Assembly: GCA_945860285.1 (NCBI GenBank)
Contig: CAMAQB010000005.1
Location: 1-64,000 of the forward strand
Direction of reading: 5' to 3'
Source of the DNA: Akkermansia muciniphila
Lineage (GTDB): Bacteria; Verrucomicrobiota; Verrucomicrobiia; Verrucomicrobiales; Akkermansiaceae
Length of the DNA: 64,000 bases
Part shown: piece after piece, positions 2,554 to 61,220 of the stretch
How positions within the stretch are numbered: the stretch's first letter is position 1
How the letters are laid out: each line of letters opens with the position of its first letter
The notes under the pieces: model-generated
What the model was told of the DNA's origin: nothing
What the model saw: the letters and a program-made list of their open reading frames with translations, nothing else
Database searches by the model: none
Translations under genes and position numbers: made by a program

Positions 2554-3837
2554 TTACTTCGTTGGATAAGCAATGCCCATGGGGGTCCATCCCACACTGG
2601 CAATGCCGGCCTTGGCTGCAGGCGAAAGAATTCCGGTGTGGACCAGGACCTTTGTCGTGGCCCCGAGGTCGTCACGGTTGGCGAAGCCAGCGACCTGCTC
2701 GGTCCAGGTCACGTGATCGACAGGAGCGGGCACTTCCAGTGTGCCACTGGCGGTGGAGGCACCGGGCAGGCGGCCGATGATTTTCACGGCAGCATAGTCC
2801 GCAGCTCCGGAACGTTGGCGCTCGGCGAGGATCGCGATTGCGGAAACGAGGAAGTCCGCCTGCTCCGCATTTTCACAGGAATTGGCGAGACGAATCATCA
2901 GTCCGCGGCCTGCGGTTTTCGGCATGGCTTCCAGCGAAGTGACGATGCGGTGTCGACGCGTGGTGCTGAGACTCGCGTTCAGTTGGAACTCCTTGATGTC
3001 TTCGGCGGTCACCTTCATCGCGGTCAGTGATTTCTCATCGCGAAGTGCCAGCTCGGACTGGGTGAGCGCATAGGTATCATCGGGAATGCCAACCATGTTG
3101 GTCGCGGTGAGAGTGACTCCGGCCGACATGACCGCCGCACCGACCCGCAGCGGCAGTCCACCGGCGAAAAACGCCCAGGTGACCTTGTCCATCTCCTCCT
3201 GCAGCCGGACATTGTCCGAATACGGATCCACTCCGAGCTGTCGGGCGGTATCGAGTTTTGCTTTGTCAAATCCGGCCACGTTTTTCGCGGTGTTGCCGAC
3301 CCCCTTGCCTGCCTGCGCGGCCACGGTGCCGGCGTCTGTTTGATTTTCCTTCGCTTCATCGGCGCGTCGTTCGACTTTCTGCGCACCGCGGCTGATCGAA
3401 GAACCCACCTTGCTGAAAAAATGACCGACCGTTTTCGGGACCTGCTTCACCGAGTTCACCGGATCATGAACGATGTTTTTCACCGCATCGATGGGTTGCT
3501 CGAGGGAACGTTTCACCCCCTCGGCGAAAAGATCACTCTTGCTGGTTTCCACGAGTTTGCGGATCGCCTCGATTTCCACAATCCGCTGGCGCACCTGCGG
3601 AACGCCGGAGGCTTCAAAAATGCCGAAGTCCGAATCGATCTCGAAGTGAGCCATGAACCCGTCCGTAACCACCTGGTCCCTCACCCGGTGCGAGGGCCCG
3701 TGGAGAAGATCCGCCGGAAGCAGATCCGCCGCACGCAGCAGCACTCCCTGTTCGAAGACGGTAACCGCAGCGGGTTGAGCGGAGATATGCCCGATGACAA
3801 ACGCGGACACGAGGGGGAAAATCAACGGAGTTTTCAT
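2554..3837 (-). CDS. secreted hypothetical protein
   Basis: A 427-residue protein with a clear signal peptide (MKTPLIFPLVSAFVIGHISAQ). It has a charged helical middle section (about 95-205: repeated Val/Lys/Gln-rich helices followed by an Ala/Lys/Glu-rich coil), then a short hydrophobic stretch near 225-250 that could insert in a membrane. The remainder is mixed alpha/beta. I do not recognise the family. It is probably periplasmic or outer-membrane associated. No operon partner is evident. Confidence 0.65.
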   Translation of the reverse strand: MKTPLIFPLVSAFVIGHISAQPAAVTVFEQGVLLRAADLLPADLLHGPSHRVRDQVVTDGFMAHFEIDSDFGIFEASGVPQVRQRIVEIEAIRKLVETSKSDLFAEGVKRSLEQPIDAVKNIVHDPVNSVKQVPKTVGHFFSKVGSSISRGAQKVERRADEAKENQTDAGTVAAQAGKGVGNTAKNVAGFDKAKLDTARQLGVDPYSDNVRLQEEMDKVTWAFFAGGLPLRVGAAVMSAGVTLTATNMVGIPDDTYALTQSELALRDEKSLTAMKVTAEDIKEFQLNASLSTTRRHRIVTSLEAMPKTAGRGLMIRLANSCENAEQADFLVSAIAILAERQRSGAADYAAVKIIGRLPGASTASGTLEVPAPVDHVTWTEQVAGFANRDDLGATTKVLVHTGILSPAAKAGIASVGWTPMGIAYPTK

Positions 3838-9912: not shown

Positions 9913-10373
9913 GGCTCATCCGCAGAATCTGTGGGTGGATTGCGGCTCGGGGAGGGCGCCCAGTTGATGGTAAAGGGCAAGGCTCAAATGCTCGAAGTTC
10001 CTATATCCAAAGGCTCTTCTCATCGCGTTGCCTACTTTCAAATTGAACTCCAGAGGGGAATGTAGTCGAATGAGCGAACTGAGGGGGAGGTGTCGTTAGT
10101 GGGACCGGATTTGCCGCAGCAAGAGCATTTGGCACGGTTGTTTTTGCGTGGCTCGATGGTGACTTTGATGAGCTTCTTGGGGCTCTCAGTCATTTCGACG
10201 GTGCGAAAAAGAAAGCCCTTGATCGGGCACAATTTACGGAGTAGGTTTTTAATTGTGATGGCGAGCGGAATGGTTGGTTTTTTTTGACCACTTGACTTAC
10301 CAATTAGCTCGTCATCACAAATGTTTATTTTCCCACAATGGTGCTTTTTACCCACAGATTTTGCGGAAGAGGC
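9913..10373 (-). mobile_element. ISL3-family element, internally deleted
   Basis: The element is bounded by 24-bp terminal inverted repeats at 9913-9936 and 10350-10373 that match at 21 of 24 positions and start GGCTC/GCCTC, as ISL3 ends do. Inside, the minus strand encodes the transposase N-terminus (to about 10050) with the zinc-finger pattern CSCCGKSG and the following RSFDYIPLW, and then the extreme C-terminus (about 10025-9915: NAMRRAFGYRNFEHLSLALYHQLG). The catalytic middle is missing, so the copy is non-autonomous. The usual 8-bp target duplication is not evident. Its right end abuts the stop codon of the neighbouring gene. Confidence 0.8.
10038..10355 (-). pseudogene. ISL3 transposase N-terminal fragment
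   Basis: About 105 codons that match only the N-terminal zinc-finger region of ISL3 transposases (KCSCCGKSGP...RSFDYIPLW), ending at a stop near the internal deletion junction. The DDE catalytic core is absent, so the product cannot transpose the element. Confidence 0.75.
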
Positions 10374-11195
10374 TTATTTTTCAAACAAGCCCAGGTCCAC
10401 TTCGCCGGCGCCGGGAATCGGCAGTTTTCCCGTCACCAGGCCGTAGTGGTTTTCCGCCCAGCCAGCGGCGGCATTGTAGGATCCCCAGCCGTCCGAGCGG
10501 ACCAAAAAGATCAACATCGCATTCGGCGTGGCTTTCACCTGATTGAGAAATTGATTGTAGTTGCCGTCCGACATCACGCTGTCCTGTCCGACGTTTTGCT
10601 TTTCCGTGCGACCTTTGCGCACGGTGATCGCGGCGTTCGAGGTCTCGACAAAAAACAGCTTGCGGTTGCCGCCGAAACCGCTTCCGGACGGTTGAACGAG
10701 CACCGGCAGCGGCTTGTCGTCGGGTTTTTTCTTGCGCAATTCGAGTTCCTTTTTGAGTGCCTCGATTTCCTTGGCCAGCGGCGGCATTTGGCGGGTGATC
10801 GCTTCGATTTGCGAAATCTGGTTCTCGACCTTTTTCTGCAGGACGGTTGCCTGCTCCTTGTTGGTTTTCGCTTCCGCGCCGGACATTTCCAGTCGTTTGC
10901 GCAGTTCGTTCAGTCGCGCTTCTTTGGCCCGGGCTTCCGCATGTGTCGCTGTGAGTTCCGCCAATCGGGTTTTCAACGGCGCGCTTTCCTGCTCCGCGGT
11001 TTTCAGCATGCGAGTGAATTCCGCAAATTTGCGGGCGAGACTTTCCTCCTCGGGGGTGCGACCGTTGGTTTGCCGGGTCTGCGCCACGCAAAGCACCACG
11101 ATGATCAGGATCAGCACCCCGATGAGAGCGCAGAGGATGTCGAGGAAGGGAATCATCATCACCTCGTCGCGATTCGCTTTTCGGCGTTTGGCCAT
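10374..11195 (-). CDS. MotB/ExbD-like protein with coiled-coil stalk
   Basis: A 273-residue protein with a single N-terminal membrane helix (about 16-40) carrying the Asp of ExbD/TolR/MotB proteins (MIPFLDILCALIGVLILIIVVL). Residues 50-155 are a long charged coiled coil, followed by a roughly 110-residue C-terminal domain that is not OmpA-like. It is 31 bp downstream of the MotA/ExbB-like gene, so the pair probably forms an ion-driven stator-like complex in the inner membrane. The ISL3 remnant begins directly after its TAA stop. Partner process unknown. Confidence 0.75.
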   Translation of the reverse strand: MAKRRKANRDEVMMIPFLDILCALIGVLILIIVVLCVAQTRQTNGRTPEEESLARKFAEFTRMLKTAEQESAPLKTRLAELTATHAEARAKEARLNELRKRLEMSGAEAKTNKEQATVLQKKVENQISQIEAITRQMPPLAKEIEALKKELELRKKKPDDKPLPVLVQPSGSGFGGNRKLFFVETSNAAITVRKGRTEKQNVGQDSVMSDGNYNQFLNQVKATPNAMLIFLVRSDGWGSYNAAAGWAENHYGLVTGKLPIPGAGEVDLGLFEK

Positions 11196-11226
11196 GGGAG
11201 GATTGTTGCTTTCTCAGTTCAGGGGT

Positions 11227-12567
11227 TCATGCCTCGTCGTTGCGCGACCACGGCCACTTGCGCCGGGACTGGCGGATGACGATTTGTTTTTCACCAAGGC
11301 TGGCGAGCACATCGTTGAGTCCCTGGATTCCGGTGTGCAGTCCCTTGAGATACTGGGAAACCTGGGTCATTGACTCCTTTACCGCGTTGTCCGATTCCTC
11401 GCGCATCGCGGCGGTTTTGACGACGAACTCCTCGCTGACCGTTTTCTGGAAGGCCGCCATTTTTTCATCGAGGCTGGTTGCATAGCCGACCATGCGCGAG
11501 GAGAGTTCGTTCAAGTCGCTGAGAAACTCGTGATGCGCGCTGGTGAGTTGCTTGACCACCGCATCGGCGATGGCTCCGGTGTCACCGTTGCCCGCACCCA
11601 CACCGTCGTTGAGTCGCGGCAGCAGGACTTCGTTGCAGAAGGCATCGATCTCGTTGAGGTTATCATCCTCCTGTTTCGAGAGGGAATTGATTGGGAAATT
11701 CAGCATCATCGCGAGCACCAGGCCGAGCAGGGTGGCATCGAAGGCCGTGCCCAGTCCGCTGGTGACGTTGTTGATCGAGGTGACAATCTTGCCGACATCC
11801 TCGACGTTGGCGAAGTTCATGCCGCCGATGGCCTGGGACAGACCGAGCACCGTGCCGATGAATCCGAGCAGCGGGATCGCCCAGAGAAAGGCACGAGGCA
11901 GGGTGTAGCTACCGCCGATGCGTGCGCTGTCGATGTCCGACTGACTGGACATCATTTCGCGGACATCGGACACCGACTGGCGGACTTCGAACAGCTCCAG
12001 CGCCTTGCGGATGCGGTTGACCATCAGGCTGTCGCGCAGTTTGCGGGGCAGCCTGTAAACGTGATCGATGAACTGCGACACGTTGCCGACGTGGATCTCC
12101 TTGCCGAGCTGCATGGGCAGCACATCGAGCAGCAGAGCGGCCCGCTGGTGGCGGAGTTTTTTGAACTTGAGGTATAGGATCGCGATCGCCCAGGTGAAGA
12201 ACAAGGTGTTGAGAAAACTGACGAGCAGGTGTTTGTAGAACAGCGAGGAGAGAAATTCCATTGCGCTGTAGGACGAGATGGCCTTGTCGGCGTGGGGGAT
12301 GAAAGGCGCGAGCATCATGAACCACAGCGCGAGCAGGAACGCGCCGATGCCGAGGCTGAGGAAAATGTTCGGATTGGTCGGGTCGGTCTCCTTCCAAACC
12401 TGGCGGGTCGCCGTGCGGTGCGCCGATCCCGCCTGGGTAGAGGCGGACTCCGGCATGGCGGAAGGAATGACGAGACGCGCATTGCAACCCGGGCAGCGGA
12501 CGAGATGACCGGCCTGCTCGGGCTCGGCTTTGAGTTGCATGTTGCAACTGGGGCAGGAGAAAATCAT
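11227..12567 (-). CDS. MotA/TolQ/ExbB proton-channel family protein with N-terminal zinc ribbon
   Basis: A 446-residue protein. Residues 1-35 form a zinc ribbon (CPSC...CPGC). Membrane helices are visible at about 70-90, 108-128, 220-245 and 258-285, the latter two being the MotA/TolQ/ExbB core (WAIPLLGFIGTVLGLSQAIGG and GLGTAFDATLLGLVLAMML). The C-terminal 130 residues are helical. It precedes a MotB/ExbD-like partner, so they likely work as an ion-driven unit. The zinc ribbon is an unusual addition to an ExbB protein but appears repeatedly in Planctomycetes/Verrucomicrobia (recollection, not searched). Confidence 0.8.
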   Translation of the reverse strand: MIFSCPSCNMQLKAEPEQAGHLVRCPGCNARLVIPSAMPESASTQAGSAHRTATRQVWKETDPTNPNIFLSLGIGAFLLALWFMMLAPFIPHADKAISSYSAMEFLSSLFYKHLLVSFLNTLFFTWAIAILYLKFKKLRHQRAALLLDVLPMQLGKEIHVGNVSQFIDHVYRLPRKLRDSLMVNRIRKALELFEVRQSVSDVREMMSSQSDIDSARIGGSYTLPRAFLWAIPLLGFIGTVLGLSQAIGGMNFANVEDVGKIVTSINNVTSGLGTAFDATLLGLVLAMMLNFPINSLSKQEDDNLNEIDAFCNEVLLPRLNDGVGAGNGDTGAIADAVVKQLTSAHHEFLSDLNELSSRMVGYATSLDEKMAAFQKTVSEEFVVKTAAMREESDNAVKESMTQVSQYLKGLHTGIQGLNDVLASLGEKQIVIRQSRRKWPWSRNDEA

Positions 12568-37720: not shown

Positions 37721-38401
37721 ATGGCACTCACAATTGAAATCGCACCAGGAGCAACCTCACGCAAACCGATGCCTGTTGTCCTACTCGTAGATGTGTCCAC
37801 AAGCATGGAGCCTGTTGGTATCGCGCAGGCCAACCAAGGCATAAGGGATTACATCGAAGAACTTCAACGCAGTGAAGATACCTGTGATTCGGTTTTTCTT
37901 TCGGTAATCACATTCAGCGATACAGCACAGACAATTATTGAACATGAATCCGTTGGCCTGGTTAGCCCGCCGCTAATCAAAGCCGGTGCGGGACGCACAA
38001 ATCTCGACAAAGGCCTAGAGGAAGTGCTGGCACTGGTGAAACGGAAAGATTTACAGTTTAAGGGAGGGAAAGAACCGTTGTTCGTTCTCATTACTGATGG
38101 AAATCCAAATTGCGCCGAAAGCGCTTGGAAGGCACAGCTGGCAATCATGAATCAGCACCCTCTTATTGGGAAAAGACCCTCTGGACGCGCAGCTGGCTAC
38201 AGAGTCATAGCAGGTGCTGGCGATGACATCAATGAATCAATTCTCACCGATTTTCGTCATGATGATGAAAAATCACAAATCGTGAAACTCAAGGATCAAA
38301 CAACAATCAGTAGCTTTTTGAAAAACCTCAAGACGTTAACAATTGAGGTATCCGAATCTCGACCGATGAGCCACGTTATTGGGACTACGCTCATCAACTG
38401 A
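37721..38401 (+). CDS. TerY-type von Willebrand factor A domain protein
   Basis: A 226-residue cytoplasmic vWA protein with a complete MIDAS metal site: DVSTS at 24-28, Thr93 in GRTNLDKGL, and Asp126 in LITDGNP. This is the TerY/YegL type, which in the TerY-P triad travels with a PP2C phosphatase and a kinase. It starts a tight six-gene operon; the next ATG is 7 bp after its stop. It probably acts as the metal-dependent scaffold or substrate of the kinase/phosphatase pair. Base composition is A+T-richer than the chromosome before 36 kb. Confidence 0.9.
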   Translation: MALTIEIAPGATSRKPMPVVLLVDVSTSMEPVGIAQANQGIRDYIEELQRSEDTCDSVFLSVITFSDTAQTIIEHESVGLVSPPLIKAGAGRTNLDKGLEEVLALVKRKDLQFKGGKEPLFVLITDGNPNCAESAWKAQLAIMNQHPLIGKRPSGRAAGYRVIAGAGDDINESILTDFRHDDEKSQIVKLKDQTTISSFLKNLKTLTIEVSESRPMSHVIGTTLIN

Positions 38402-38408
38402 ACCTCTT

Positions 38409-39305
38409 ATGGAAACGCCTGCCGATTCCAGCCGGTTTAGTTTGCCTCCGATTGTCACCTACTATGGTGTAGCCGGGCGGAAAGTCGCTGTCGTGAAATT
38501 CTGCTGGCAGGGAAAATCCCATGTTGAAATGGGAACCGAATGTCAAGACTTTGCTGACATATTTCCATCATCACCGAATGGCGACTCTGTGCGATTATCA
38601 TTGGTTGTGGCTGACGGTGTAGGAACACGGTCTCGATCGCGGAAGGGAGCTGAATTTGCATGCTTCACTATTGGCAAGACATTCAGCGATGTCATGTTCG
38701 AGGGAGATCGCCTTTCAGATCGGTTCGCAAGAGCAAGGTGTAAATTCATCGATTTATGTGCCAGGGATGCATCCAATTACGAAGGCGAACACGAAGACAA
38801 AGGCGAAGAAAACACGGGCAACAATAAAACTCCGAAAGATAATACAGTTAATGAATATGCGACGACAGCCTTGGTTCTATGTCTCGAGGCGCAAGGATAC
38901 TGGGCCGCGAGTGTAGGCGACGGAGCTATCTACGGCCTGACAAATGGCGGATCATCGGCGCGATTATTGACGAAAATCAATCGTGAAGGTTTTTCAAATG
39001 AAGTGCGACCGTTGACCAATGACCAATGGCAGCGCAGTTACGACGAGTCGCATCCAGAGTTCATTGCCGACGAGAGCATGCAAGGTTTTTGCCTCATGAC
39101 AGACGGCTTAAGCGAGAGCATTGGTGATGCAGGCATATATTTTGGCAGTATTTGGCCGGAGTTGAAGCAGCGGTTGAATGACCGGACGGCCCTTACCGAG
39201 TATGCCGACGCCTATTGCCGTTACTGGGAAGATCGTAATTTCTCGGATGATGATAAAACACTTGTGGCAGTATTCATAGACCCAGAGGGCGATGCCGACG
39301 TCTAA
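38409..39305 (+). CDS. PP2C-type protein phosphatase
   Basis: A 298-residue Ser/Thr phosphatase. Metal ligands: Asp69 in VVADGVGTRSRSRKGAE, Asp171 in ASVGDGAIYG, Asp232 in LMTDGLSE, and Asp281 or 282 in DDDKTLVAV. Residues 124-146 are an acidic low-complexity insert. It would reverse the action of the kinase encoded next, whose ATG (39292) overlaps the end of this gene by 14 bp. Equivalent to YegK in the E. coli yegI-yegK-yegL set. Confidence 0.9.
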   Translation: METPADSSRFSLPPIVTYYGVAGRKVAVVKFCWQGKSHVEMGTECQDFADIFPSSPNGDSVRLSLVVADGVGTRSRSRKGAEFACFTIGKTFSDVMFEGDRLSDRFARARCKFIDLCARDASNYEGEHEDKGEENTGNNKTPKDNTVNEYATTALVLCLEAQGYWAASVGDGAIYGLTNGGSSARLLTKINREGFSNEVRPLTNDQWQRSYDESHPEFIADESMQGFCLMTDGLSESIGDAGIYFGSIWPELKQRLNDRTALTEYADAYCRYWEDRNFSDDDKTLVAVFIDPEGDADV

Positions 39306-40647
39306 CGCCAGATTTACTGCGGCTGACGGCCAAGAATATCGCTATGACGCCGAACTTGGTGTCGGAGGGCAGGCAATAGTCTGGCAGATCACCCGCCTAA
39401 CTGACGGGCACAAGATGGCAATCAAGTTGTTTAAGAATCCTCCAGCCGGAGTGGCATTAACGAAACAGCAAGAACGCCTCAACAAGGTCAGTAATGTTGC
39501 TAAGCAGATTGCTGAATCTTTGCCACAGGCACAGGTCTGCTTTCCCCAGACAGTTCATAATTCAGGAGGGGATTTTGGCGTGCTGATGGAACTTGCATCA
39601 GGCAAGCCACTTGATCACCGCACACTCCTGACGAATCCCCATGATCAGCCTAACCCTTTCGCAAGTTCTGCACTCCTATCTGTTGTCAACCGTAAGGAGA
39701 AATACCATCACTTTCTACTTGCTGGCTTTCATCTTACCCGTGCGCTCCGTGCAATCCACAGTCATGGAATGACGCACTGTGATCTATCGCTCGGAAACGT
39801 ATTTATCGACACCTCTGACGGACGCATCTGTCTAATTGACTGCGATAACTTAGCATGTGGGGAGAATTACCTGCCAGTAAAAGTTGCTGGAACTCCAGGC
39901 TATAGGGCACCAGAGCTCATCACGGCGCAAGTTCCAAGGCCGACTCCTGAATCTGACCGTCACAGTCTTGCAATTCTGCTTTTCTACCTAGTTTTATTCA
40001 GGCATCCATTTATTGGTAGTGTTGATCCAACTTTCAATTTATTGGACAAGACAGAGGAAGAAGCATTTGGAGCAGAAGCGTTATTCACAGATCATCCATC
40101 AAATAGCGGAAATAGATTTGCTGGAGGCATTCCTTTCACTAGCCTGCCGAAGTCGATGCAAGCAATGTTTGCAAAGGTGTTCAAAGATGGCCTGAAAGCG
40201 CCAATCGAACGTCCAACTGCTGCAGCGTGGTCTCACGAGTTCTGGCAGGCACTCGAGTGCATGGCCGAATGCAATCATTGCAGGCAGAGATTTTTTATAT
40301 CTGATAGGTATTCCACTTGCTTGTTCTGTGGGAAAATGAACCCTGGCCCGCGGTGGCGTTTGCGCTTCTCCAATGGAAAGAAGATGTTAACGGCACACGG
40401 ACGTAAACTTTATGAACACCACCTCGAAAATGCTGAGTTCCAATTTCTGCGACCAATGGGAGAATTGAAGGAAACGGATCGTGGTATGACGCTCAAGAAC
40501 CTCAGCGACACGACGTGGACAATACATCTTTCGTCCGGCGGCGTTCGGCAATGTGCACGCGGGTTCGCATTCCTATTCGAGGGAGTAAACTCGTTTGATT
40601 TCGTACTCGGCCGAGCATTTATCGAACCAGTAATCGATGAGGTCTGA
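39292..40647 (+). CDS. Ser/Thr protein kinase with C-terminal zinc ribbon (TerY-P kinase)
   Basis: A 451-residue soluble kinase. Glycine loop GVGGQA 23-28, Lys45 in MAIKLFK, catalytic loop HCDLSLGNV 162-170, metal-binding DCDN at 183-186 in place of DFG, and RAPEL 205-209. Zinc ribbon CNHC...CLFC (Cys 327, 330, 343, 346), then a roughly 100-residue beta-rich C-terminal part that could be a divergent FHA-like or sensor domain. Zinc-ribbon kinase, PP2C and vWA together are the TerY-P module of Ter-linked stress systems. Substrates unknown; the vWA and channel proteins are candidates. Confidence 0.9.
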   Translation: MPTSNARFTAADGQEYRYDAELGVGGQAIVWQITRLTDGHKMAIKLFKNPPAGVALTKQQERLNKVSNVAKQIAESLPQAQVCFPQTVHNSGGDFGVLMELASGKPLDHRTLLTNPHDQPNPFASSALLSVVNRKEKYHHFLLAGFHLTRALRAIHSHGMTHCDLSLGNVFIDTSDGRICLIDCDNLACGENYLPVKVAGTPGYRAPELITAQVPRPTPESDRHSLAILLFYLVLFRHPFIGSVDPTFNLLDKTEEEAFGAEALFTDHPSNSGNRFAGGIPFTSLPKSMQAMFAKVFKDGLKAPIERPTAAAWSHEFWQALECMAECNHCRQRFFISDRYSTCLFCGKMNPGPRWRLRFSNGKKMLTAHGRKLYEHHLENAEFQFLRPMGELKETDRGMTLKNLSDTTWTIHLSSGGVRQCARGFAFLFEGVNSFDFVLGRAFIEPVIDEV

Positions 40648-40665
40648 TAAACTAGAAACTAATCA

Positions 40666-42294
40666 ATGGGAACACTATTTCTTGCTTTGATCATCATGCT
40701 TACCGTTTTTGGGGGCATTGGCTTGTATTTAGAAATCCGTTTCTGGCTAGCACAAAGCAAAGCCATCGCGCATCTTTCTAAAGAGCTGCTCGTAAACGAC
40801 CCAGACAGCATGAGCAACTGGCTCAATACAGTATTGGGAAAAGAGCATCCATTGCGCCCTGCTCTTGATCGCATTCTGGCCACGGATCACGCCCCAGAAG
40901 CATCCGTTGATCTTATTGAGCCTAACAAAAACTACGTCCGACTTTTGTGCGGGATACGTAGGTATGCCATTTCTGTAGTACTGCTTTGCGGGATTGCAGG
41001 CACACTTTTCTCACTGCATGCTGCCATCCCTGCCAGCGGTCTCTTTGAATCAGTTGATCCAAACCAGATGGCAACAAGCATGGCGAAGTATCAGGAAAGT
41101 TTTCGCCATCTACAACCTGCACTTGCCAATGCGTTCTGGCCAAGCATTTGCGGTGTCCTTGCGACTCTTTTGTTACAGGCAGGTAGATTCGCCTTCCTTG
41201 ATCCGGCACATCAAAATGCTGGGCGAGCCTTCGTTGCTTTTGCGAGTAGTGCTCTAATTCCGTGGACGCTTCGTCATAAAGAAGTGTCGTCCGCTGCTAC
41301 AGATGCGGCATCAAAACTTGAAGGCGCTGCTAATGCATTTGCCAATGCGGCACAAAGCGGCGTTGAGGCCGTAACAAGCGGGGCGCAAACTACTAAAGAG
41401 TCGCTTGAAGGCCTGAGCATGGCGACTATTGATGGCTGCAGCCAGCTATCGCAAGCGTTTCAAACATCAGCGGAGCAAATAGGCACAGCAGGGTTTGCCG
41501 CCGTTACAGTTGTTGAGAGTTCAACCAAAGCAATCGCAAAAGCCATGTCCGATCTTGGAGTGGCACTAACACCAATCGTAAGTGGAATGGAAGGTGTCTC
41601 AAAAAACATTGGGACCGCAGCTGACCGTTTTGACAAGAGCGTTGCAGCGAATGGCCCTTTCTTGAAGGCAATGGAACAGCTCTATGACGCAAGCAGCCCA
41701 GCGGAAAAGCGCTATGAGCAATTATTGGTTGCCGTTACGGAGATGCAGCAGCTTTCGACCACGCAAAACGCAGACTTGCTACGCTTGCTACAAGAGACGG
41801 CTATTTTAACAAAAACAGTAGTGCAAACAGCTCAGGAATCGGCACGACTTGCTCAAAGTCTGGAAACCGCTACGGCTAGCCTGCCAGCAACAGCACAAGC
41901 TGTAACGACACATGGAGATGTCCTTACAGCGATCACCAAGCAATGGCAAAGCGAGGTAACTAGTCTTACATCGGAGTTTCGTAGTTTCTCAGTTGACGTA
42001 AAAACCGCAGCCGGAGCACATCGCCAGGTGGCAAATGATTTGCTCGCAGACCTGCCGACGCAGATAGCGCAGGCACTTGCAACTAAATTGCCCCAGGAAC
42101 TCGCCCCCTTAGTGAGTAGCACAACTATAGGAAATCAACACACTATTGCTCTACGCGACGGCATACGTGGTTTGCAGGCATCAATTGAAGGACTCCGCAC
42201 AGAGATGAGTCAGATCGGAATTAAGGGCCCCACCGGAGAGCCAGCGACAAGGATTAGACGTAAGAAGAAATGGTATTTTCTTGGAATGAAATAG
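40666..42294 (+). CDS. MotA/TolQ/ExbB-like membrane protein with long helical tail (ZorA-like architecture)
   Basis: A 542-residue protein. Membrane helices at about 4-27, 99-122 and 154-175; the pair CGIAGTLFSLHAAIP and LANAFWPSICGVLATLLL corresponds to MotA/ExbB helices that line the ion path. Residues 200-520 are a long Ala/Thr/Ser-rich helical or coiled tail, ending in a basic stretch (RIRRKKKW). A channel with a long cytosolic tail is the hallmark of ZorA from Zorya anti-phage systems. It begins 18 bp after the kinase and pairs with the next gene. Orthology to ZorA is an inference from architecture. Confidence 0.75.
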   Translation: MGTLFLALIIMLTVFGGIGLYLEIRFWLAQSKAIAHLSKELLVNDPDSMSNWLNTVLGKEHPLRPALDRILATDHAPEASVDLIEPNKNYVRLLCGIRRYAISVVLLCGIAGTLFSLHAAIPASGLFESVDPNQMATSMAKYQESFRHLQPALANAFWPSICGVLATLLLQAGRFAFLDPAHQNAGRAFVAFASSALIPWTLRHKEVSSAATDAASKLEGAANAFANAAQSGVEAVTSGAQTTKESLEGLSMATIDGCSQLSQAFQTSAEQIGTAGFAAVTVVESSTKAIAKAMSDLGVALTPIVSGMEGVSKNIGTAADRFDKSVAANGPFLKAMEQLYDASSPAEKRYEQLLVAVTEMQQLSTTQNADLLRLLQETAILTKTVVQTAQESARLAQSLETATASLPATAQAVTTHGDVLTAITKQWQSEVTSLTSEFRSFSVDVKTAAGAHRQVANDLLADLPTQIAQALATKLPQELAPLVSSTTIGNQHTIALRDGIRGLQASIEGLRTEMSQIGIKGPTGEPATRIRRKKKWYFLGMK

Positions 42295-42312
42295 CAGTCA
42301 GCATACAACACT

Positions 42313-43275
42313 ATGTTCAGGAAACACCAAGACGAAAACACATACTGGCCTTCACTGACGGACTTGGTTTTGGCAGTTCTCCTGCTAGTCCTAATACTCT
42401 GGGGGGTGGACTCTGGGATGCGCTCGGTGTGGGACTCCTTATTTCCGCGACTTCAGCCTGGGCAAATCGCTGTCGGAGAGAAGGAATGGAATGAGCGACC
42501 TATTCCAAATCCCAACTATGTCTCAGTCAAAAAGTCTGATTTGGATGAATTAGTGAAAAAAAATCCTGATGAGATGATCGTCAAAAAAGCTGATTGGGAG
42601 AACCGGGTGATAAAAGAATCGTATGAGATCGTCGTAAATAAAGCGGCCTGGGAGCAGCGAGTAGAAAAGAAACCTGATGAGATTGTCGTCAAAAAAGCTG
42701 ATTTTGAGAAGCGGGTTGAGCTAAAGCCCGGCGAAGTGGTAATGAGGGATGCACCATTAGTAATACCATTAGAAGAGGCGTCAGGGTATGCATTTGCCCC
42801 AGGGCATGCAGAACTCCCCGCTGGCTTCGAGGAACGCTTAAGACAGGATATTGTGCCAAAGATACGCAAAATGGTTGAAGCTTATCCAATCGAAGTAATG
42901 GAAATAATCGGACACACCGATGGTACGCCTAAGACTGGATCTTCAAATCTAGATTCCATGTTGATGGGATTCGAGTTTGGTCCGTCATCACCAAGTGTTA
43001 TTGGAAGATTACAAGCTGGATCAAATGCTGATCTTGGATTAGCGCGTGCGCTGTCAGTCGCCTCATTTTTAAACAATGAATTCGACAAATCACAAAGTCC
43101 TAGATTAGGTTCCCTTGTTTGCCGAGCCTACTCCGGTGCTCAGCTTATTGCCCCGAATAGTAATATGGTGAGTGGTGCCAAAAATGAAGATATCCCTGCT
43201 CGACGACGCATCGAATTACGTTTCACGAGAAAGAGTAAACTTGATGCAGAAAAGCCAGCAGCGGTTGCAGAATGA
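42313..43275 (+). CDS. MotB/OmpA-like protein with five 18-residue repeats (ZorB-like architecture)
   Basis: A 320-residue protein. One membrane helix (about 14-31) begins with SLTDL, whose Asp17 matches the ion-binding Asp of MotB/ExbD. Residues 54-143 are five tandem 18-residue units with a K-x-(D/A)-(W/F)-E-x-R-V core and a PDE(I/M)V end. Then an OmpA-type peptidoglycan-binding domain: IGHTDGTP at 199-206, NADLGLARALSVASFL 238-253, and RRRIELRF at the end, with a roughly 30-residue insert between the first two. The protein should couple the channel to the cell wall. Confidence 0.8.
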   Translation: MFRKHQDENTYWPSLTDLVLAVLLLVLILWGVDSGMRSVWDSLFPRLQPGQIAVGEKEWNERPIPNPNYVSVKKSDLDELVKKNPDEMIVKKADWENRVIKESYEIVVNKAAWEQRVEKKPDEIVVKKADFEKRVELKPGEVVMRDAPLVIPLEEASGYAFAPGHAELPAGFEERLRQDIVPKIRKMVEAYPIEVMEIIGHTDGTPKTGSSNLDSMLMGFEFGPSSPSVIGRLQAGSNADLGLARALSVASFLNNEFDKSQSPRLGSLVCRAYSGAQLIAPNSNMVSGAKNEDIPARRRIELRFTRKSKLDAEKPAAVAE

Positions 43276-43523
43276 AAATCGATTGGACCAGAAAGCGCAC
43301 CAAGATCGAGAGGTGGCAGAGCAGTTCTGCGAACGACCTTGGAAGATTCGAGCTGAACTCGATCAAATTCGATTATCAACAGGAGCGTGTGCGATTGGAG
43401 GCCATGCTGGAAGAAATCACAGGTGTAAAAATAGTATTTTGGGACGATGAGCCTGCGTCAGAGGCGGGTGACATGCTGCTAACGATCGAGCAGTGGCGCA
43501 TGGTGTGTCATGTAGCCAGCTAA
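43272..43523 (+). CDS. small conserved-position protein, last gene of the TerY-P/channel operon
   Basis: An 83-residue protein whose ATG overlaps the stop of the preceding gene (ATGA), which argues for translation coupling and a shared function. It is mostly helical (FELNSIKFDYQQERVRLEAMLEEITGV) with an acidic C-terminal half and no membrane segment. No family recognised. It may be an effector, regulator or immunity-type component. Confidence 0.6.
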   Translation: MKIDWTRKRTKIERWQSSSANDLGRFELNSIKFDYQQERVRLEAMLEEITGVKIVFWDDEPASEAGDMLLTIEQWRMVCHVAS

Positions 43524-43755: not shown

Positions 43756-44055
43756 TCATATTCCACACCGATCCATAATAACGGTGCAGGGCACTTTCAT
43801 TTTGTGAAGCATGCGGGCAATCCACATGCCGCAGCCTCCGGCTTCGTAGCAAACGGAAATGCGCGATAGAGGAATGTTCTTGGACTTGGCGATACGCCGG
43901 ATCAACCGATCTAGCGCAACCTGGGTGGTGGCGACTTCTCCGTGGTGGCGGATTTCGCCTGTGGCTCCCGGATCAGCAATGGCGACGGAAGATTTTTCTT
44001 TATGGACGTCGAGTCCGATGTAGAGTTGGGGTGTCGTGTCTGGGTTCGTTTTCAT
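43756..44055 (-). pseudogene. IS110-family transposase, N-terminal fragment
   Basis: About 99 codons starting at Met 44055: LYIGLDVHKEKSSVAIAD is the N-terminal DEDD (RuvC-like) motif of IS110 recombinases, followed by SRISVCYEAGGCGMWIARMLHKMKVPCTVIM. It stops after MDRCGI, so the rest of the catalytic domain and the C-terminal Ser domain are missing. Non-functional remnant lying between the operon and the orphan genes. Confidence 0.85.
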
Positions 44056-44200
44056 TATTTGTAATGTATTGAATGTGGATAGGTCGCACCGACTTCGTGT
44101 CGGCGCGATAGCCCACGACTTGAACCAGACACGACACCTCCCTATCAATCTTAAATTTGACCGAATGGTGCGTGACTGGAACCAGTCGCAGCCATAAGGT
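44056..44200 (-). ncRNA. possible remnant of the IS110 bridge-RNA region
   Basis: This non-coding stretch is directly upstream of the IS110 transposase start, where IS110-group elements encode the bridge RNA. On the minus strand it has a hairpin with arms CGCACCGAC/GTCGG-type around 44083-44106 (CGCGCCGACACGAAGTCGGTGCG region). Structure beyond this was not computed. Tentative, given that the transposase is truncated. Confidence 0.3.
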
Positions 44201-44212
44201 CTAGCACAATGA

Positions 44213-44758
44213 ATGAATGATTTGATCCAGATTGTAAAAGAGCCGCACAAATGGACTCCTTTGCCTCCAACAGGCCACAAGTTTCAGATTTCCGTCCTCA
44301 CTTGGATTGAGCGCGATGGAGGATCAGTGGCGCCGTGGACTCTCGCTCGCCTTGCAGTGCCAAGCCTCGCCTCGCTAGTCAGGGCGGATGTTATTTCTGC
44401 CGAGTATTGGACGCGAAAGCGATGCGGACTTCTCAGGCGCTGGCGTGACGAGTTCGAACACGAACGACCGTGGGCTGATCTCATGAACTGCAGCGATGCC
44501 AAGCTAGAAAAGAATGACGAATTTCCTAACCGCATTGTCTTCACACGAGACGGCACACTCATGCTTCTCGAGCAAACCGAGTTCTGGAATGCGGCTGGTG
44601 GACCGGCGCCCTACCATGATTCGGTGGCACTCTCATTCTTTTCGGAGTTCGAAATCCAGAGCCAGATCGAGGAAATAGTTCTGGACACCTGCCGAACAAT
44701 GGGGGTCAACAGAATCGCTCAATACGTGCCTGACGCTGGCAAATTGCGCCGCCGCTAA
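44213..44758 (+). CDS. hypothetical protein
   Basis: A 181-residue soluble protein with no recognised domain. Sequence is mixed helix and strand with conserved-looking aromatic patches (WTPLPPTGHKF, FWNAAGGPAPYHD). It follows the IS110 remnant and is 14 bp upstream of the next gene, suggesting a small operon of orphan genes. Confidence 0.6.
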   Translation: MNDLIQIVKEPHKWTPLPPTGHKFQISVLTWIERDGGSVAPWTLARLAVPSLASLVRADVISAEYWTRKRCGLLRRWRDEFEHERPWADLMNCSDAKLEKNDEFPNRIVFTRDGTLMLLEQTEFWNAAGGPAPYHDSVALSFFSEFEIQSQIEEIVLDTCRTMGVNRIAQYVPDAGKLRRR

Positions 44759-46393: not shown

Positions 46394-46532
46394 CTCGCTT
46401 CGAGTTCAAGCCGCCATGACCATTCCAATCTCGAAGTCGAAGACTCGCCCCCGGTAAGGGGTCCTGTGTCCTTTGACGTTGGGCGGAAAATTATCCGCTG
46501 GCTTTGTTCGAGCAATCAACTATCCTGCTATC

Positions 46533-46742
46533 ATGCCACAGGTAACAACACTACTCAAGGAAGCATCGAAGCTCGATCTCCCTGATCGGGCAGAACTTGT
46601 ATCGTCGCTACGAGAAGACTTGGACCCCCATCCTCATTATGTCAGTGATGAGGAAGTTCTAGAGCGTCTGGAAGAACTAAGGCCGGGCAAGGTCAAGGGT
46701 CTCACCAGGAATGAATTTTGGAAGGCATGTGGTCGCCCATAA
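46533..46742 (+). CDS. antitoxin of the addiction-module component family
   Basis: A 69-residue protein from Met 46533: LLKEASKLDLPDRAELVSSLREDLD is the start of the small helical addiction-module antitoxins that pair with RelE/ParE toxins. It is followed 3 bp later by a broken toxin gene. The C-terminal half (FWKACGRP) is less typical, so the antitoxin may be altered too. Confidence 0.7.
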   Translation: MPQVTTLLKEASKLDLPDRAELVSSLREDLDPHPHYVSDEEVLERLEELRPGKVKGLTRNEFWKACGRP

Positions 46743-47161: not shown

Positions 47162-47915
47162 TCATGCACGCAGAGCGCCCATATCCAGACTCTTGGCAAT
47201 CCATTCGTTGCTCACCGCGCAGTGCTTTTTCACCATCGCTGCCAGCAATGCTTTCTGCCAGATTCCTTTGCGCTGTTGAGCGAGAGATTCTCGATCAACG
47301 TCGTAGTCGATTGCTGCACCCAACATGGTGATAACACGCTCGGCATCAGACTTTGTGCGCTTTGACAACTGGTCCTGACACGGAGCCTTTTTTGATCATT
47401 TTTCCAGCCATTTCGGGCCTTTGCCGCTCTCATAAGCCGGCACACTGCTCCATGCGTAGGATGTCAGTGGTTCAGTAGCTAACAAACGCGCCCGCGCGGG
47501 ATTGAGATGAATGTAGTCAGCGGTGACGCGAAAGTAGCTGCCATCGGCAGCGCGTTCGCCCGAGACGGGAATGGATTTGTAGCGACCCTGGAACTCATGA
47601 CAGCGGCGCTGATGCCGCGCATCCCAGTCCTGGCTAAACGTTCCCATCAAATAGCGCATTCCATCCACGAGATTCGGCTCGGGAGTTTCTAACAGCAGGT
47701 GAAAATGATTCGCCATCAAGACATACGCATGAACTTTCCAACAACACCGCTCACAAACCTCAGCAAGACGGAAGAAAAAGCCCTTGGCATCTTCGTCATC
47801 GAGAAAGATTCGTTTTCCCATGCATCGCGTGAGGCGCAGCCTTTTACGCGCAATCACCACGTGCCATCACATGATACGTAGCACCAGCATATTCAAAGCG
47901 TAACGGTCGGGCCAT
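47162..47915 (-). pseudogene. REP-associated tyrosine transposase (RAYT, Y1_Tnp), frameshifted
   Basis: The N-terminus MARPLRFEYAGATYHVMARGD starts at 47915 in one frame. The main domain is in another frame (to 47396): DDEDAKGFFFRLAEVCERCCWKVHAYVLMANHFHLLLETPEPNL with the HUH-type HFHLL motif, and VTADYIHLNPARARL. The C-terminal DNA-binding part is in a third frame (to 47162: DAERVITMLGAAIDYDVD...WIAKSLDMG). At least two frameshifts and an internal loss make it inactive. Adjacent to the perfect palindrome. Confidence 0.85.
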
Positions 47916-58643: not shown

Positions 58644-61220
58644 ATGGGACTCGATAAAATGACACAAAAACTCCAGGAGGCATTGCAACAGGCTCAGCGG
58701 CTGGCATCCAAGTCCAGCCATGCGGAGCTGAAAAGTGCCCACGTCTTGCAAAGTCTGCTCGAACAGGAAGGAGGAATCCTCATGCCCATTTTGCAAAAAG
58801 CCGGAACCGACATTCCACGTCTCAGGAATTCCGTCGCCGACAACCTCGCCGCCGAACCACGTGTTCAAGGTTCCACCTCGCAACCTCAGCTGAGTTACGG
58901 CTTGCGGGCCACTCTGGATGCGGCAGACAACGCCCGCGAATCCCTTGGCGACGACTTTCTCAGCGTCGAGCATTTTCTCCTCGGTGCGCTGAAGTCCGAC
59001 TCCCCCGCTGGCAAGTTGCTCAAGGAAGTCGGCATGACCGAGGCCAAGGCCCGCGAGGCGATCAAGTCCGTGCGCGGCAGCCAGAAAGTCAGCGATGAAA
59101 ACCCCGAGGGCAAATACCAGACTTTGGAAAAATACGGCACGGATCTAACAGCACGGGCCCGTGAAGGCAAGATCGATCCGGTCATCGGTCGCGACAATGA
59201 AATCCGGCGGGTGATGCAGGTGTTGTCGCGTCGTACTAAAAACAACCCCGTGCTCATCGGCGAACCCGGTGTCGGCAAAACCGCGATCGTGGAAGGTCTG
59301 GCCCGGCGCATCGTGTCGGGCGACGTACCGGATTCGATGAAAAAAAAACGGATCATCACCCTCGATCTGGGTGGCATGCTGGCCGGAGCCAAGTATCGGG
59401 GTGAATTCGAGGACAGACTGAAAGCGTTCCTGAAGGAGGTGACCGAATCCGCCGGACAGATCATTCTTTTCATCGATGAGCTGCACACCATCGTCGGCGC
59501 GGGAGCCAGCGAGGGCGCAGTCGATGCCTCGAATTTGCTCAAACCCCAACTTGCCCGCGGCGAACTGTCCACCATCGGCGCGACGACTTTGGATGAATAC
59601 CGCAAGCACATCGAGAAAGATGCCGCGCTCGAACGAAGATTCCAGCCGGTGTTGGTTGGGGAACCCTCGGCGGAGGACACCATAGCGATCCTGCGCGGAT
59701 TGAAAGAGCGCTACGAAGTGCATCATGGCGTGCGCATCCAGGACGGCGCGCTGGTGGCCGCCGCCATGCTTTCCGACCGCTACATTTCCGATCGATTTCT
59801 TCCTGACAAAGCCGTGGATCTCATCGACGAGGCCGCGTCTCGTCTGAAAATCGAACTGGATTCCATGCCCACGGAGATCGATCAGATCGAACGCCAAGTC
59901 CTGCAACTGGAGATGGAGAAAAAAGCGCTGGAAAAAGAAACCGACAAGGCATCGGCCGCGAGACTGGACAAGGTCCGCGAGGAGCAATCCAACCTGAAGG
60001 AACAAAGCTCCGCGCTGATCGCGCAGTGGCGCAATGAAAAATCCGTGATCGATGAAGTTCGCAGCGCACAGGGAAAAATCGAGACTCTCAAAACGCAGGC
60101 CGAGCAGGCGCAGCGAATCGGCAACCTGACCCGTGCCTCGGAGATCACCTATGGCGAATTGCCCGGAGTGCAAAAAGAATTGGAGGCGGCAAAGCAGAAG
60201 CTGGCGAACTATCAATCGAACGGCGGCATCCTCAAGGAAGAGGTGACCGAGGACGACATCGCCCGGGTTGTGTCCGCATGGACGGGCATCCCGGTCAACC
60301 GCCTGCAGGAAGGTGAGCGGGCCAAACTCCTGCAAATGGAAACGCGACTCGGCGAACGCGTGATCGGCCAGAAAAAGGCCATCACTGCCGTCTCCCATGC
60401 GGTCCGGCGGGCGCGATCGGGTCTTCAGGATGAAAACCGTCCGGTCGGTTCTTTTTTGTTTCTCGGTCCCACCGGTGTGGGAAAGACCGAACTATCGAAA
60501 GCGCTCGCGGAGTTTCTCTTTGATGACGAAAGCGCGATGATCCGACTCGACATGTCGGAGTACATGGAAAAGCACAGCGTTGCCCGGCTGATCGGGGCAC
60601 CGCCGGGATACGTTGGCTATGAAGAAGGCGGACAACTCAGCGAACGGGTGCGCCGCAAACCTTACAGCGTGATTTTGTTCGACGAGGTGGAGAAGGCTCA
60701 TGGCGATGTCTTCAACGTATTGTTGCAGGTTCTCGATGACGGACGTATCACCGACGGCCAGGGGCGAACCGTGGATTTCCGCAATACCGTGATCATCCTC
60801 ACCTCCAACATCGGCTCGCAATTCATTCTGCACGAGGAGAATTCCGAGCAACGGGAAGCCAAAGTGATGGAAGCGCTGAGGGCTCATTTTCGGCCCGAGT
60901 TTCTCAACCGCATTGATGAAATCATCATCTTTGACCGTCTTGATCGCAGCGAGATCGGCAGCATCGTGGAGTTGCAGCTCACCCGGCTTCGCCAGCGCCT
61001 CGCGAAACAGGGGCTGGCGCTGGCACTGACACCGCAGGCGAAGGATTTCCTCGCCAACCAAGGCTACGATCCCACCTACGGGGCCCGACCTTTGAAACGT
61101 GCAATCCAACACCACCTGCTCGACACTCTCAGCATCGACGTGTTGGACGGAAAATTCGTGGAAGGCGATGTCATTGAAGTCGGCGTGTCAAATGGCGCGC
61201 TTGAATTCCACAAATCCTGA
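58644..61220 (+). CDS. clpB: ClpB disaggregase
   Basis: An 858-residue Hsp100 protein. Clp_N domain (1-145), NBD1 with [17 protein letters not shown] and [24 protein letters not shown], the long coiled M-domain (about 405-520) that marks ClpB, NBD2 with [17 protein letters not shown] and [13 protein letters not shown]. The ClpP-docking LGF loop of ClpC is absent. Works with DnaK/DnaJ (not in the window) to dissolve aggregates after heat stress. Confidence 0.96.

Follow-up and report, generated by a model that had tools for sequence, protein, structure and literature searches.

The operon analysed here has its closest described relatives in two kinds of system. The Zorya motors, formed by ZorA and ZorB, require peptidoglycan binding, the ZorA tail and ion flow, and they bring ZorE to the membrane upon infection; the structures 8VVN and 8VVI are those of type I and type II ZorAB (PMC11890865). 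ExbBD, TolQR and MotAB belong with them to the same broad 5:2 ion-motor superfamily. The TerY-P triads, composed of a vWA protein, a PP2C-type phosphatase and a kinase, are proposed phosphorylation switches (PMC11090510). TerY-P-like modules with an OB-fold kinase are stand-alone anti-phage systems according to the passage of PMC11090510 that cites Gao 2020. A TerY-P triad is also joined to a larger system in CoCoNuT types II and III-A, where its partners are coiled-coil nucleases, helicases and McrB-type GTPases (PMC11090510).

In a window of 64,000 nucleotides from Akkermansia muciniphila (the whole stretch of DNA that was analysed), six tightly packed genes join the two known modules, TerY-P and a ZorAB-like motor, in a conserved arrangement. 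In contrast with the CoCoNuT systems, the partner of the triad is here a membrane motor.

Gene content and genomic setting

The operon occupies positions 37721-43523 of the plus strand and consists of the following genes:

37721..38401, plus strand, vWA protein (TerY-like), 226 aa, Pfam VWA 6e-9
38409..39305, plus strand, PP2C-type phosphatase, 298 aa, Pfam PP2C_2 6.6e-28
39292..40647, plus strand, Ser/Thr kinase with zinc ribbon, 451 aa, Pfam Pkinase 4.3e-16
40666..42294, plus strand, ZorA-like channel, 542 aa, family and channel-region profiles match ZorA structures
42313..43275, plus strand, ZorB-like subunit of the MotB/OmpA class, 320 aa, family profile matches ZorB structures, OmpA Pfam match below threshold
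43272..43523, plus strand, 83-aa soluble protein of no known family, homologue at the same place in L020

The junctions measure, in order, 7 bp, a 14-bp overlap, 18 bp, 18 bp and a 4-bp overlap when the PP2C gene starts at the ATG at 38409; an alternative TTG start at 38379 would give a protein of 308 aa. The order and spacings of the six open reading frames in an earlier note on this DNA were all exact on re-reading. A Pfam scan assigned no family to the channel or to the 83-aa protein. The A+T-rich island described in the note was also recovered, the GC content of the operon being 48.5% versus 57.8% for the remainder of the window. Each of the three complete loci, i.e. those of the window, of a Verrucomicrobiaceae metagenome-assembled genome (L020) and of a Desulfobacterales genome (L027), shows an operon GC content 7-9 points under that of the surroundings, which is consistent with horizontal spread.

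Downstream of the operon lie an IS110 transposase fragment (43756-44280, minus strand), an antitoxin-like ORF (46473-46742, plus strand, PF09720, below the Pfam cut-off) and a Y1 transposase (Y1_Tnp, 47396-47860, minus strand). The mobile elements that the note had placed nearby are these transposases. PADLOC matched none of the neighbouring ORFs tested except for an unspecific AAA+ match on an 858-aa ORF at 58644, 15 kb from the operon, so that no defence island is shown. TerC and TerD genes are common though not obligatory companions of TerY-P triads; none was found among the nearby ORFs of the window scanned with Pfam, and the neighbours covered by these scans include no flagellar gene. An Rfam search gave no match, and promoter and terminator scans performed no better than on shuffled sequence. 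Synteny around the trigger factor gene was compared within the genus in search of an empty site; the flanking genes were not conserved.

The TerY-P-type triad and the ZorAB-like motor

The kinase matches plasmid kinases at 1e-28 to 1e-30 (tblastn), and these are encoded in the VWA-PP2C-kinase order beside TerD on Bartonella, Klebsiella and Azospirillum plasmids; the kinase profile scores 1e-46 to 7e-53 on the same classical loci. The triad of the window is therefore of the TerY-P type, as the note had it, and shares with classical triads the three proteins, their order and their intact active-site motifs. The MIDAS motif of the vWA protein is complete, as previously read (D24-x-S26-x-S28, T93, D126), and the metal-site motifs of the phosphatase (ADGVG, GDG, TDG, SDDDKT) and the catalytic motifs of the kinase (K45, H162-C-D164...N169, D183) are intact. 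The kinase domain is followed by a CxxC...CxxC zinc ribbon (327, 343) and a C-terminal domain of about 100 aa, a layout common to the motor-linked kinases and several classical TerY-P kinases; the CxxC pairs are present in four of the four motor-linked kinases and also in several classical ones. An FHA or OB fold was considered for the C-terminus and found no support in Pfam. Identity to the L020 and L027 proteins is 82% and 32% for the vWA protein, 67% and 28% for the phosphatase, and 69% and 33% for the kinase, respectively.

The window triad differs from the classical ones in the ZorAB-like motor that follows it, in an operon that contains no TerC or TerD gene, and in its phylogenetic position. 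In trees of 11-19 sequences, with a small sampling of other triads, the motor-linked proteins form groups separate from the classical triads sampled (vWA 99/98, PP2C 87/88, kinase 81/81). Across 388 genomes of Verrucomicrobiota and 395 of the phylum to which L027 belongs, no kinase fell in the interval between the motor-linked proteins (E of 1e-230 or better, these having themselves been in the profile) and the ordinary TerY-P kinases (best 2.6e-51). A further motor-linked kinase, absent from the profile, obtained 118 bits over about 157 residues (L131, see below). Thiotrichales kinases, encoded by separate genes in genomes with stand-alone ZorAB, were considered as a displaced half of the system and rejected: they are ordinary TerY-P-class kinases, several of them in vWA-PP2C-kinase clusters.

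Hydropathy shows three hydrophobic segments in the channel protein (1-27, 93-124, 152-178), against four transmembrane helices in MotA, and a long helical cytoplasmic tail follows them. The profile of its family matches the ZorA structure 8qyk at 2.3e-6. Many other matches of this full profile are unrelated coiled coils, and the channel region was therefore tested alone. With E values up to 1, the PDB entries retrieved by its profile were six ZorA sequences (best 8vvn, 2e-5) and a single unrelated protein; TolQ, ExbB and MotA were absent. On these profiles, the channel is closer to ZorA than to TolQ, ExbB or MotA. The AlphaFold2 model of the channel has a pLDDT of about 72-90 at the hydrophobic segments and low values in the tail; a fold search with this model, whose tail is poor, gave no match at E<0.001, and the low-confidence fold resembles ZorA and TolQ/ExbB about equally.

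The ZorB-like subunit is built of a transmembrane helix, a repeat-bearing linker and an OmpA/MotB-type peptidoglycan-binding domain; the latter distinguishes it from ExbD and TolR, which have no OmpA-like domain. Its single hydrophobic segment (10-40) contains Asp17 in a WPSLTDL motif, which follows the W-x-S-x-D pattern of ZorB. This aspartate is invariant in the verrucomicrobial set and present in at least 90% of a broader one. The Pfam OmpA match (0.007) is below the cut-off; the family profile matches the ZorB structures 8vvn (1.7e-9) and 8vvi (1.9e-6). The AlphaFold2 model (mean pLDDT 74.5) matches MotB-class periplasmic domains (MotS best, 3.5e-5; 3s02, 4.0e-5). The periplasmic linker carries three in-frame 54-nt repeats of 18 residues each (window 42552-42716). 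Overall, the kinship with ZorA and ZorB advanced in the note is borne out by the profiles; structure prediction gives the B subunit a MotB-class periplasmic domain and is indifferent for the channel. The note had held TolQR or ExbBD against this kinship, should they align best and should the pair never accompany the triad elsewhere; ZorA matches best, and the pair does occur elsewhere with the triad.

Recurrence of the arrangement and the wider ZorAB-like family

A collection with one genome for each of 84,980 bacterial and archaeal species was scanned with an alignment of MotB-like sequences, all counts being lower bounds. The six-gene combination that the note took to be new recurs. The best locus among the matches listed, that of L020, contains the complete set of six in unchanged order; near 10130 its ZorB-like reading is divided over two frames, possibly through an error of assembly. 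L027 has the first five genes in order and a different protein in sixth position. A third locus (L131), from a set of 43 genomes belonging to the Thiomargarita order, is on a contig that starts inside the kinase gene and continues with ZorA and ZorB. With the window, the arrangement is present in at least four genomes, one of them partial, from three bacterial phyla, and the kinase-channel junction measures 1-18 bp in the four. The joining of a TerY-P triad and a ZorA/ZorB-like motor in one operon is genuine and conserved. It is also rare: the ZorB-like query retrieved only the window's own protein from the 388 Verrucomicrobiota genomes, and among the 395 genomes of its phylum only L027 gave a strong match.

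The gene of the 83-aa protein overlaps the end of the ZorB-like gene by 4 bp (ATGA). Its homologue in L020 has 80 aa and lies at the same place (E 3e-17). The same ATGA overlap follows the ZorB-like gene in L027 (ORF 10495-11229, 244 aa) and in L131 (ORF 3045-3323, 92 aa). Homology of the 83-aa protein to these two ORFs was not significant against shuffled decoys, and only the shared position is claimed.

The ZorAB-like family occurs mostly with neither triad nor effector, alone or beside tubulin-like genes and without nucleases, and, among the ZorB-like loci examined, many consist of a ZorA-ZorB pair on its own, in cyanobacteria and Thiotrichales. In the ZorB tree, a clade of 10 sequences (SH-aLRT 98) unites the partners of the triad with Thiotrichales proteins and leaves the cyanobacterial, rhizobial and tubulin-linked ZorBs outside. 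Strict monophyly of the ZorBs encoded beside a triad does not hold, as L056, which stands alone, falls with L131 (p-AU 1e-4). Scans of viral contigs with the kinase, ZorB and ZorA queries found no relatives, and phage records gave two distant kinase matches only. On plasmids, ZorB relatives were found only in rhizobia, Microvirga and Tistrella, at loci which, where examined, have no triad; no ZorA relatives were found there.

Other operons of the family were observed. About three dozen cyanobacterial loci (e.g. L025:3645-10528) encode a vWA-like protein, Tubulin_2 (PF13809), a ZorA-like and a ZorB-like protein, nearly all with the vWA-like gene before the tubulin-like one; a literature search gave no description of this operon. 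Relatives of the window's genome (L009:428-8938, L007, L010 and L011) have a different tubulin-like operon, in the order membrane protein of about 260 aa, Tubulin_2, OmpA-domain protein of about 650 aa, ZorA-like and ZorB-like. A Rhizobiales plasmid operon (L014:5853-10471, L013, L016-L019) encodes a 480-aa protein, a protein of about 273 aa with a vWA-like motif, and ZorA-like and ZorB-like proteins, the transmembrane aspartate of the last appearing to be replaced by glutamate. The vWA assignment of the cyanobacterial and rhizobial proteins was made by eye from a DVTES/DVTDP-like motif, Pfam making no call.

Motor and phosphorylation switch as a proposed single system

The same gene order in L020 and L027, the kinase-ZorA-ZorB succession in L131 and the grouping of the triad proteins in trees argue for one functional system. 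The operon probably serves a response to envelope perturbation. As for its assembly, ion flow, direction of signalling, trigger and output, we infer the following scheme. The ZorA-like and ZorB-like proteins would form an ion-driven motor in the inner membrane, the OmpA-type domain gripping peptidoglycan and the long ZorA tail reaching into the cytoplasm. The motor would report a perturbation of the envelope, such as phage entry or other wall damage. The ZorA-like tail, which in Zorya works with nuclease effectors, would here recruit or activate the zinc-ribbon kinase. The targets of the activated kinase would be the vWA protein, other proteins or both; the PP2C phosphatase would reset the switch, and the 83-aa protein may be an adaptor or the final effector. 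For a single coupled system of this kind, with the peptidoglycan-anchored motor upstream of the TerY-P switch, the chances appear about even.

Signalling could also run in the opposite direction, with the triad as sensor and the motor as output, the kinase and phosphatase acting on the ZorA-like tail; phosphorylation of the tail would then gate ion flow or change the grip on peptidoglycan and so adjust the envelope under stress. The ZorAB-like pair exists without the triad in many cyanobacteria and Thiotrichales and so probably has an activity of its own, and TerY-P has been described as a metal-sensing switch (PMC11090510). Nevertheless, the motor of Zorya acts upstream and the effectors depend on its tail (PMC11890865), and the reverse direction is considered rather unlikely.

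The operon resembles Zorya types I-III in its long-tailed channel, the transmembrane aspartate in W-x-S-x-D and the OmpA-type peptidoglycan-binding domain, and among motor proteins in the PDB its profiles match ZorA and ZorB structures best. It could be imagined as a further Zorya type whose effectors have escaped recognition, the anti-phage role falling to the kinase or to the small sixth protein, all the more since type III demonstrates how completely the accessory proteins of Zorya can differ (PMC8565338). However, Pfam, PADLOC and NCBIfam scans found no ZorC, ZorD, ZorE, ZorF or ZorG in the six ORFs, and none of the six proteins contains a nuclease or a DUF3348 or DUF2894 domain. The B subunit is divergent, and the Zorya models of PADLOC match the window proteins only weakly, at 2e-5 to 2e-4 (in the wider family, ZorA1 matches 15/19 and ZorB1 18/22). 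Because these effectors are missing and the family is mostly alone or tubulin-linked without nucleases, often with no partner at all, the operon is not a Zorya system; of the note's "ZorA/ZorB of Zorya" the likeness stands and the identity does not, and a Zorya type with effectors in disguise is improbable. Two independent modules that merely share a mobile island, as the low GC and the toxin-antitoxin-like and transposase genes close by might suggest, are a very improbable explanation in view of the constant gene order and short kinase-channel junctions across genomes of three phyla and of the separate triad branch.

Under the preferred reading, with the motor upstream, phage defence may be the role of the operon. 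The Zorya motor on one side and the anti-phage TerY-P-like modules on the other separately tie both halves to defence; kinship with Zorya alone is no proof of it, since the ZorAB-like family is widespread without triad or nuclease. The fuller proposal, in which an ion-driven rotary motor anchored to peptidoglycan controls the kinase and phosphatase and converts envelope events into phosphorylation that halts the phage or protects the cell, is tentative and falls somewhat short of an even chance. The likelihoods given for an upstream motor, an upstream triad and a defence or stress system are not mutually exclusive.

In the open-access literature searched, no link of a TerY-P triad to a MotA/ZorA-type motor was found; an earlier mention in subscription papers, among them the 2012 Ter and 2020 Gao studies, is possible. 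To our knowledge, the partners described for Zorya motors have all been DNA-acting or uncharacterised, and for the TerY-P triad an input has only been hypothesised, as metal sensing. The triad-motor operon suggests that the input of TerY-P is the envelope, by way of the motor, and that ZorAB-like motors can have a non-nuclease output. The ZorAB-like family being widespread outside recognised defence contexts, these findings also bear on the origin of Zorya.
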